Assembly (NCBI GenBank): GCA_002862745.1
Contig: PKDX01000047.1
Span: forward strand, 1-40,370
Reading direction: 5' to 3'
DNA: 40,370 nucleotides
Source: Bacteroidota bacterium
GTDB taxonomy: Bacteria > Bacteroidota > Bacteroidia > Chitinophagales > UBA8649
This document shows, one piece after another, positions 15,058 to 17,937 of the stretch. A program made the position numbers and the translations under genes. The notes below the pieces were generated by a model. It saw nothing but the letters and a program-made list of their open reading frames with translations, ran no database searches and was not told the DNA's origin. Within the stretch, counting starts at the first letter, position 1. Each line of letters starts with the position of its first letter.

Positions 15058-16977
15058 TTATTCGTCCTCTTGTACTTCTTCGAATTCTACATCAGTGAAG
15101 TCATCACCACCATGAGTAGCTTGTGATCCTGTATCAGCACCTGGCGCTCCCTCTGGTCCAGCACCCTCAGCTTGCTGAGCTGCTGCAATGTCCTGGTACA
15201 TAGAAGATACGAGTGTTTGTAGTGCCTGCATTTCGCGATCTATACCCTCGAGATCTTCATTTTTATGGACCTCCTTGAGTTTAGCCACACCTTCTTCAAT
15301 AGCCTGCTTTTTATCTGCAGGAAGCTTGTCTCCTAAATCAGTAAGCGTTTTTTCCGTTTGGAAGATGAGTGAATCTGCTTGATTGACTTTGTCGATTTTT
15401 TCACGAGCCACTTTATCCGATTCTTCATTGGCCTTAGCTTCTGCCTTCATTCGCTCGATTTCTTCTTGCGAAAGTCCAGTGCTTGCCTCGATTCGAATGC
15501 TTTGCTCAACGCCTGTGTTCTTATCCTTAGCGCTAACATTAAGGATACCATTTGAATCAATATCAAAGGTTACCTCGATTTGAGGAACACCTCTAGGTGC
15601 TGGTGGAATACCATTGAGATGAAAGCGACCGATTGACTTATTATCTTGTGCCATCGAACGTTCTCCTTGAAGTACATGAACCTCAACACCCGGTTGATTA
15701 TCAGCGGCTGTTGTGAAGACTTGTGACTTCTTTGTTGGAATCGTTGTGTTCGACTCAATTAACTTACTGAATACGCCACCAAGTGTTTCAAGCCCTAAAG
15801 AGAGCGGTGTAACGTCTACAAGGACGATATCCTCATCCACATCACCTGAAAGAATACCTCCTTGGATGCTTGCCCCTAGTGCAACAACCTCATCGGGATT
15901 TACTCCCTTCGATGGTTTTTTACCAAAGAATTCCTCAACCGTCTCCTGAATCTTAGGGATACGAGTTGAACCTCCCACGAGGATCACTTCGTCGATATCA
16001 GATTTAGAATATCCTGCATCTTTCATGGCTTGGCGACAAGGCTCAAGCGTGCGCTTGATTAGGTCTGCGCTGAGTTGTTCGAATTTAGCTCTTGACAGTT
16101 TCTTGACCATATGCTTTGGTACCCCGTCAATTGCGGTGATATAGGGAAGATTGATTTCTGTCTCCCCTGAACTAGACAACTCAATTTTAGCCTTTTCTGC
16201 AGAATCTATTAGTCGTTGAAGTGCCATAGGGTCTTTTCGCAAGTCCATGTTCTCTTCAGCATGGAAGGAATCCGCAAGCCATTCTACGATTACATCGTCA
16301 AAGTTGTCTCCTCCAAGTTCAACATCACCATTGGTTGACTTTACTTCGAAAACACCATCACCAAGTTCTAGGATAGATACATCGAATGTTCCGCCTCCTA
16401 AGTCATAGACCACAATGTTCATATCCTTATTGCGCTTGTCTAAGCCATAGGATAAGGCAGCCGCAGTAGGTTCGTTGATAATACGGCGTACCGTAAGACC
16501 TGCAATCTCACCGGCTTCTTTTGTGGCTTGACGCTCTGAGTCATTGAAGTATGCTGGTACAGTGATAACTGCTTCAGTGACTTCAGTTCCCAGATGATCC
16601 TCTGCGGTTTTCTTCATTTTTTGAAGAATCATGGCAGAAATTTCCTGTGGCGTGTAATCTCTATCATCAATGGTAATACGTACTGTGTCTCCTGTGCCTT
16701 GCTTGATTTTATAAGCTACAGCGGTCGCTTCCTTAGAAAGTTCGCTGTGGCGTTTACCCATAAACCGCTTTACACTCGAAACCGTGCGTAACGGGTTGGT
16801 CACTGCTTGGCGTTTTGCGGGATCTCCAATTTTACGCTCACCATTATCTGTAAAGGCGACAACTGATGGCGTTGTTCGATTCCCTTCCTCATTTTGAATA
16901 ACTACTGGATCGTTCCCTTCCATTACGGCTACACAAGAGTTGGTAGTACCCAAGTCGATTCCAATTATTTTCCCCAT
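15058..16977 (-). CDS. dnaK: Molecular chaperone DnaK (Hsp70)
   Basis: ATP-dependent cytoplasmic chaperone working with DnaJ and GrpE, neither of which is in the window. 639 residues from the ATG at 16977 ([20 protein letters not shown]); the open frame extends 26 codons further, but those residues are not family-like. ATPase-domain motifs: IDLGTTNS, the phosphate-2 block [18 protein letters not shown] and the adenosine block [14 protein letters not shown]. The substrate-binding domain has [13 protein letters not shown], and the tail ends in [13 protein letters not shown], the usual acidic C-terminus. Complete and ordinary. A strong terminator follows. The upstream region shared with panB carries TGTCA inverted repeats that may control heat-shock expression. 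Confidence 0.98.
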
Positions 16978-17056
16978 TTGAATGAATTTGGCCCTCTTTA
17001 GGCAAAAATCCGTCCAATCGACTAAGTTGGCCTGTTTTGAGTAAAATTGGCACAAA

Positions 17057-17094
17057 TGACAGATTTAACATCCTGTCAACGTGTCAATATGACA
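17057..17094. promoter_or_regulatory. Cluster of four TGTCA/TGACA sites between dnaK and panB
   Basis: Within 38 bases of the divergent dnaK-panB gap lie TGACAG (17057-17062), CTGTCA (17073-17078), TGTCA (17082-17086) and TGACA (17090-17094). The first two form a 6-base inverted repeat with a 10-base spacer; the last two form a perfect 13-base palindrome, TGTCAATATGACA. The cluster starts 80 bases upstream of the dnaK ATG. The palindrome covers the position where the -33 element of the panB promoter would lie. This looks like an operator or a heat-shock sigma/regulator site; the regulator is not identifiable from the window. Confidence 0.6.
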
Positions 17095-17109: not shown

Positions 17110-17117
17110 TATCTTTG
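17110..17117 (+). promoter_or_regulatory. -7 element TATCTTTG, 4 bases before panB ATG
   Basis: Exact match to the Bacteroidota -7 consensus TAnnTTTG, followed by aacg and the panB ATG. With transcription expected to begin a few bases after this element, the panB message should have essentially no leader. No TTG is found at the -33 position, where the TGTCA palindrome lies instead. Confidence 0.6.
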
Positions 17118-17121
17118 AACG

Positions 17122-17937
17122 ATGTCAGTACATAAAAATGCGAAGCGTATTACTACGCATACATTACAAACGATGAAGGAGCATGGCGAAAAGATAGCTA
17201 TGCTAACCGCCTATGATTATAGTTTGGCAAAAATTGTGGACTCGTCCGGTGTGGATGTTATTCTTGTGGGTGATTCTGCCTCGAATGTTATGGCGGGACA
17301 CGAGACGACACTACCTATCACACTTGATCAAATGATTTACCATGCAGCTTCGGTGGTCCGTGCTGCTGAAAAAGCGTTGGTTGTAGTTGATCTCCCTTTC
17401 GGTTCCTATCAGGGAAATTCTAAAAATGCGCTGGATTCGGCGATAAGAATTATGAAGGAATCCGGCGGACATGCCGTCAAGCTGGAAGGCGGAGCAGAAA
17501 TTAAGGAGTCCATTGAACGCATTCTCACAGCAGGTATTCCGGTTATGGGACACCTTGGACTTACGCCTCAGTCGATTTACAAGTTTGGAACCTACCAGGT
17601 ACGTGCAAAAGAAGAGGCAGAGGCACAGAAACTCATTGAGGATGCCAAGCTATTAGCTAGTATAGGGTGTTTTGCCTTAGTTCTTGAAAAAGTACCTGCA
17701 GCGTTAGCCAAAAGAGTGGCTGAGGAGATTCCTATCCCTGTGATTGGTATTGGTGCAGGTCCTGATGTTGATGGACAAGTGCTGGTGTTGCACGATATGG
17801 TGGGAATAAGCCATGAGTTTAAGCCAAGGTTTTTACGCCAATACATGCAATTGTTCGATGCCATGCAGGAGGCCATTGGTCAATACGTGCAAGACGTCCG
17901 TTCAAAAGACTTCCCTAACTCAAAGGAGCAATATTAA
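17122..17937 (+). CDS. panB: 3-methyl-2-oxobutanoate hydroxymethyltransferase
   Basis: First committed step of pantothenate (coenzyme A) synthesis: adds a hydroxymethyl group from 5,10-methylene-tetrahydrofolate to alpha-ketoisovalerate, giving ketopantoate. 271 residues, full family length. Motifs: [36 protein letters not shown] with the Mg-binding Asp51, [10 protein letters not shown] with the second Asp, AVKLEGG with the metal Glu, [20 protein letters not shown] with the catalytic Glu, and [14 protein letters not shown]. The start is supported by alignment of TTHTLQTMK with the N-terminus of other PanB proteins. panC and panD are not nearby. 92 bases separate it from the downstream dehydrogenase, so co-transcription is uncertain. 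Confidence 0.97.

Follow-up and report, generated by a model that had tools for sequence, protein, structure and literature searches.

The window, a stretch of 40,370 nucleotides, contains two divergent genes that flank a short intergenic region. On the minus strand lies dnaK (15058 to 16977), which starts at the ATG at 16977 although a longer listed frame begins upstream at a TTG, and on the plus strand lies panB (ketopantoate hydroxymethyltransferase, 17122 to 17937). Between them, a cluster of TGTCA half-sites extends from 17057 to 17094, about 80 bp from dnaK as the first-pass annotation had placed it. Here TGACAG (17057 to 17062) is followed after ten bases by CTGTCA (17073 to 17078), and a second inverted repeat, TGTCAATATGACA, occupies 17082 to 17094. 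Both layouts were found again when the letters were re-read, as were the four half-site copies within 38 bases, all of the form TGWCA. The second repeat had been called a perfect palindrome; its two 5-bp arms are indeed perfect, but they flank ATA and it is for this reason not strictly self-complementary across its centre. Read on the dnaK strand, the cluster is TGTCA-tat-TGACA-cgt-TGACA-ggatgttaaatc-TGTCA. It thus contains a three-fold TGWCA-N3-TGWCA-N3-TGWCA array with the fourth half-site 12 bp further on, an array that the annotation had missed.

The probable promoter of dnaK belongs to the sigma-54 type. The element TTGGACGGATTTTTGC (GG-N10-GC) lies on the minus strand at 17002 to 17017, ahead of the ATG by 40 bp, and matches the consensus at 9 of 12 positions. 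Its GG and GC are found ten bases apart within TTGGCACG-N4-TTGC, the arrangement of a -24/-12 promoter, and such a match arises by chance in about 2% of shuffled regions. The genome of the window (G000) encodes rpoN (PF04552 at G000:C8:53116-53589), which is also present in all 61 genomes compared. Counted from the predicted sigma-54 start, the half-sites on the minus strand lie at about -68 (TGTCA, 17057 to 17061), -85 (TGACA, 17074 to 17078), -93 (TGACA, 17082 to 17086) and -101 (TGTCA, 17090 to 17094). The third is separated by 3 bp from both the second and the fourth, and pairs with the fourth as the inverted repeat over the -33 zone of panB. All four are located 44 to 77 bp upstream of the -24 element and not over it. 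The cluster therefore sits, relative to the predicted promoter, in the zone of the enhancer sites (UAS) of sigma-54 activators (bEBPs), which consist of repeated half-sites some 60 to 150 bp upstream of the promoter.

The repeated motif beside dnaK is not a product of chance. The window holds a single group of four TGWCA copies within 38 bp, and such a group arose in 1 of 200 dinucleotide shuffles of its full sequence; the triple array was recovered in 1 of 300 shuffles, while TGTCA as such is not over-represented (68 observed vs 92 expected). As both patterns were chosen post hoc, the conservation tests weigh more than these shuffles. In the sister species G002, 12 of the 144 intergenic bases differ, with no change in any half-site or in the sigma-54 element. 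Within the genome of 2.06 Mb, TGTCANNNTGACA is found at two places and TGWCANNNTGWCA at three: the dnaK-panB region, the miaB promoter (C5:13177-13189) and an open frame of 1329 codons. The last copy (G000:C15:6457) was taken as chance because it lies within this long frame. The only other intergenic TGWCA-N3-TGWCA of the genome is the one directly before miaB.

The same arrangement recurs upstream of dnaK in relatives. In 69 upstream regions from the organism's order, a sigma-54 motif (consensus approximately TTGGCAYA-N3-ATTGA) precedes the start codon by a median of 61 bp and scores at least 9/12 in 51 regions, compared to about 1.5 in shuffles and to none of 27 control panB upstreams. TGWCA occurs 188 times (35 +/- 5 in shuffles), an about five-fold over-representation, and TGACA-N3-TGTCA is matched at 8/10 or better in 61 of the 69 (about 8 in shuffles). 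The half-site spacing differs among genomes, N3 pairs being a minority, which speaks against the reading proposed below. It should also be kept in mind that the shuffles leave shared ancestry in place, although the families compared are distant from one another. One member of the same genus, G001 (78% complete), encodes an activator (described below) that is 95% identical to that of the window's genome, while its dnaK is only 71% identical and panB is missing; it is likely a mixed or incomplete bin.

Other chaperone genes of the relatives follow the same pattern. For groES, a sigma-54 score of at least 8/12 was observed in 27 of 31 regions (shuffles 2.9) and a UAS score of at least 8 in 22 (shuffles 3.9). 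For grpE, 17 of 27 regions reach 9/12 for sigma-54 (shuffles 1.1) and 21 carry the UAS (shuffles 2.7). A composite pattern of UAS and sigma-54 element with the correct internal spacing of N6 yielded 12 matches in the collected loci, and none when the N6 was replaced by N4, N5, N7 or N8. In the window's own genome, the chaperone promoters covered were those of dnaK, groES and grpE. There, the groES site is degenerate and grpE (G000:C23) has no clear sigma-54 motif (score 7), both of which count against the reading proposed below. In the grpE region of most relatives, unlike in the own one, the sigma-54 motif directly follows TGACA-N3-TGTC. The first-pass annotation had considered its idea lost if close relatives lacked the half-sites upstream of dnaK and no further copies lay near other heat-shock genes. 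The dnaK half-sites are conserved, and since copies are found at groES, at grpE and at the operon that runs from miaB to groEL, this outcome did not occur.

The operon in question consists of miaB, an activator gene, lptE, a TPR gene, secG, groES and groEL. The activator (407 aa, G000:C5:14708-15928) is one of exactly two bEBPs in the genome. It contains an AAA+ domain (PF00158, residues 14 to 180) with the GAFTGA loop and a Fis-type HTH (PF02954, 366 to 405) whose core is nearly invariant across the order, and it has no N-terminal sensor. This is the architecture of PspF, yet the protein scores 273 bits against the PspF equivalog TIGR02974 (cut-off 443.55). Its orthologue is single-copy in 60 of 61 relatives, the exception being a genome that is 72% complete, and is detected with E < 1e-170 in all sampled members of the class. 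The orthologue was also found in 80 named loci, which are mostly labelled Bacteroidota. Outside the class the matches are weaker and several paralogues appear, which makes orthology there less sure. In the activator protein, the families of the window organism's order group with Chitinophaga, and the organism is thus apparently not a member of the Flavobacteriales. Between the AAA+ lid and the HTH, at residues of approximately 287 to 305, a conserved segment (consensus ILYKxLFDMKKDxNDLK) is present that could serve as contact for an inhibitor.

The operator also recurs at the miaB promoters of named Bacteroidota. Among the 80 named loci, 27 miaB promoters were recognised by a strict protein pattern; TGACA-N3-TGTCA is matched there at 9/10 or better in 25 and at 8/10 or better in 26, with the consensus CTGMCA-TTT-TGTCA. 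An exact TGHCA-N3-TGTCA followed by TAnnTTTG occurs in at least 25 of 74 loci, a lower bound because the scan demanded the exact operator, and in 24 of them the gap, measured with a scan-specific offset of about 8 bases at the TAnnTTTG element, is 16 to 20 bp; none were expected at random. In the window's genome, the miaB site ends 16 bp before TACCTTTG. With this spacing the operator covers the -33 element, which is the geometry of autorepression.

Taken together, we consider it likely, with a probability of roughly 0.78, that the cluster is an enhancer of the dnaK sigma-54 promoter and is bound by the bEBP of the groESL operon, which would activate dnaK and repress its own operon. The assignment to this activator is supported by its being one of only two bEBPs, with the sole other intergenic TGWCA-N3-TGWCA at the promoter of its operon. 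The sequence itself shows the motif, its spacing and conservation, its copy number in the genome and the gene linkage; from these, the contact between protein and DNA, the activation, the induction by heat, the autorepression and the effect on panB are inferred. In the proposed mechanism, the sensor-less PspF-like protein would contact TGWCA-N3-TGWCA, loop to the sigma-54 polymerase at 17002 to 17017 and open the dnaK promoter by ATP hydrolysis, presumably upon heat shock. By covering the -33 element it would very likely repress the miaB operon. The activator itself may be controlled in trans, as is PspF, though this is a guess. The first-pass annotation had offered a heat-shock operator different from CIRCE or a dedicated sigma-factor site. 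The former stands insofar as the motif is conserved and unrelated to CIRCE, but the proposed mechanism is a different one, that of an activator enhancer. As for the latter, sigma-54 does appear to be involved, but its site is the one at 17002 to 17017, which the annotation had missed, and the TGTCA copies are most likely the enhancer of the activator.

The cluster might also be an enhancer of sigma-54-dependent dnaK transcription that is served by the second bEBP, a receiver-domain protein of the NtrC/AtoC type (G000:C6:33376-34743). This is the only other candidate in the genome, but its own upstream region contains no TGWCA. Moreover, in the relatives none of 28 genes for activators with an N-terminal domain carries the operator at 9/10 or better in its promoter (2 of 28 at 8 or better), while the groESL-linked operon does, and we regard this assignment as unlikely. 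Hardly more credit can be given, indeed slightly less, to a classical repressor (TetR, MarR or HrcA-like) that silences dnaK and panB until its release by heat. The inverted-repeat form with its 3-bp spacer and the overlap with the -33 zones of panB and miaB would suit such a protein. A repressor is at odds, however, with the position of the sites upstream of the dnaK -24 element and not over it, with the requirement of sigma-54 promoters for an activator, and with the motif tracking the bEBP operon. The CIRCE element itself, TTAGCACTC-N9-GAGTGCTAA, was set aside, since its best match, at the own dnaK, reaches 10 of 18 positions.

Two further readings were set aside as well. That the site is a panB operator, with dnaK as a mere neighbour, is suggested by the inverted repeat on the panB -33 zone. 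It is nevertheless very improbable: dnaK carries the motif with or without an adjacent panB, and 5 of 27 panB upstreams reach a UAS score of 8 (shuffles 2.2) in a set that includes divergent dnaK-panB pairs. The least probable of all is an enhancer of the NorR type, which responds to nitric oxide. NorR sites have the form GTCA-N3-TGAC, and the resemblance of TGTCAATATGACA to this form is one of site likeness only. Neither bEBP of the genome resembles NorR, for which a GAF domain and a score above the curated cut-off would be expected; the groESL-linked one, which lacks an N-terminal domain, scores 308 bits (cut-off 476), and the other starts with a receiver as read by eye. The form conserved elsewhere, furthermore, is TGMCA-N3-TGTCA at chaperone genes.

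Under the enhancer reading, panB may still be affected. Its housekeeping promoter has a predicted -7 element, TATCTTTG, at 17110 to 17117 on the plus strand, 15 bp after the inverted repeat, so the repeat covers the -33 zone, in agreement with the position given to it earlier. As this geometry resembles that at miaB, the outer repeat may damp panB; we put the chance that the bound activator lowers panB expression, in the window organism's family, at about one in three. The proposed tie of a metabolic gene to stress control is thus possible but local: among the panB loci of 30 relatives, a close divergent dnaK-panB pair is confined to this family and one or two others, and the motif does not exceed chance in panB upstreams elsewhere. 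TATCTTTG ends 4 bases before the ATG, and the panB mRNA may consequently be leaderless or nearly so.

Beyond the order, nine other families of the class contributed 15 dnaK regions, every one of which has a UAS score of at least 8, with sigma-54 scores of 7 to 10. In genomes outside the class, an hsp20-like gene often comes before dnaK, and the sigma-54 motif and TGWCA half-sites are then found before hsp20 and not before dnaK. A reading in which the module is limited to the class was rejected on this ground. Before the hsp20-dnaK operon, sigma-54 scores of at least 9 were observed in 13 of 15 cases, 12 of these with TGWCA within 130 bp, a result that is suggestive only because up to 1.5 kb was scanned without a shuffle control. 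The module probably goes back to the ancestor of the phylum. With odds slightly short of even, one sensor-less, autorepressed sigma-54 activator with the single operator TGWCA-N3-TGWCA may be the master regulator of heat shock that the whole phylum Bacteroidota, taken broadly, inherited from its ancestor; without a sensor, it would be restrained in trans, possibly by a chaperone. If so, a phylum-wide activator, also in classes outside the Bacteroidia with the module before hsp20-dnaK, would fill the role that falls to HrcA or RpoH in other bacteria. The control of heat shock in Bacteroidota, which inhabit gut, soil and sea, is little worked out, and the proposal puts forward one defined protein together with a short operator sequence.

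PspF, which controls the phage-shock proteins of E. coli, is autoregulated, and the proposed system resembles it in several aspects: a protein of AAA+ and HTH only, an enhancer upstream of a sigma-54 stress promoter, and a site at its own promoter. The activator described here, however, is not an orthologue of PspF, would target the core chaperone set and is encoded in an operon context of the Bacteroidota. Having no sensor domain, such a stress activator would need to be restrained by other means, and no PspA-like inhibitor was identified for the Bacteroidota protein. CIRCE/HrcA likewise acts through an inverted repeat that precedes dnaK and groE genes, but with the half-site TTAGCACTC and a repressor in place of the activator proposed here. 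For the one-component bEBPs of Desulfovibrio operators have been predicted, such as yGTCA-N6-TGACr for DVU2894 (PMC4641369). GTCA/TGAC half-sites were predicted for a bEBP there as well, on the basis of sites that precede the gene encoding it, but the spacer is six bases and the regulation flagellar.

The closest precedents come from the Bacteroidota themselves. In F. psychrophilum, sigma-54 (SM4) promoters were mapped for dnaK, groESL, grpE-dnaJ, htpG, lon and clpB (PMC9723704), and the mapped sigma-54 transcript start of dnaK supports the enhancer reading. In the promoter table of the same 2021 study, a sigma-54 regulator adjacent to lptE is given a different kind of promoter, SM5 (PMC9723704). 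Chaperones are also enriched among the predicted sigma-54 genes of Bacteroidota (PMC12316311). In the main texts of the openly accessible literature covered, no earlier assignment of activator and operator was found. Sigma-54 control of Bacteroidota chaperones is already published, with dnaK, groESL and grpE under promoters of the same kind as that predicted for dnaK in the window. Both studies left the activator open and named no enhancer site in their main texts (PMC9723704; PMC12316311); the proposed assignment of activator and operator, the putative autoregulatory site and its conservation appear to be new.
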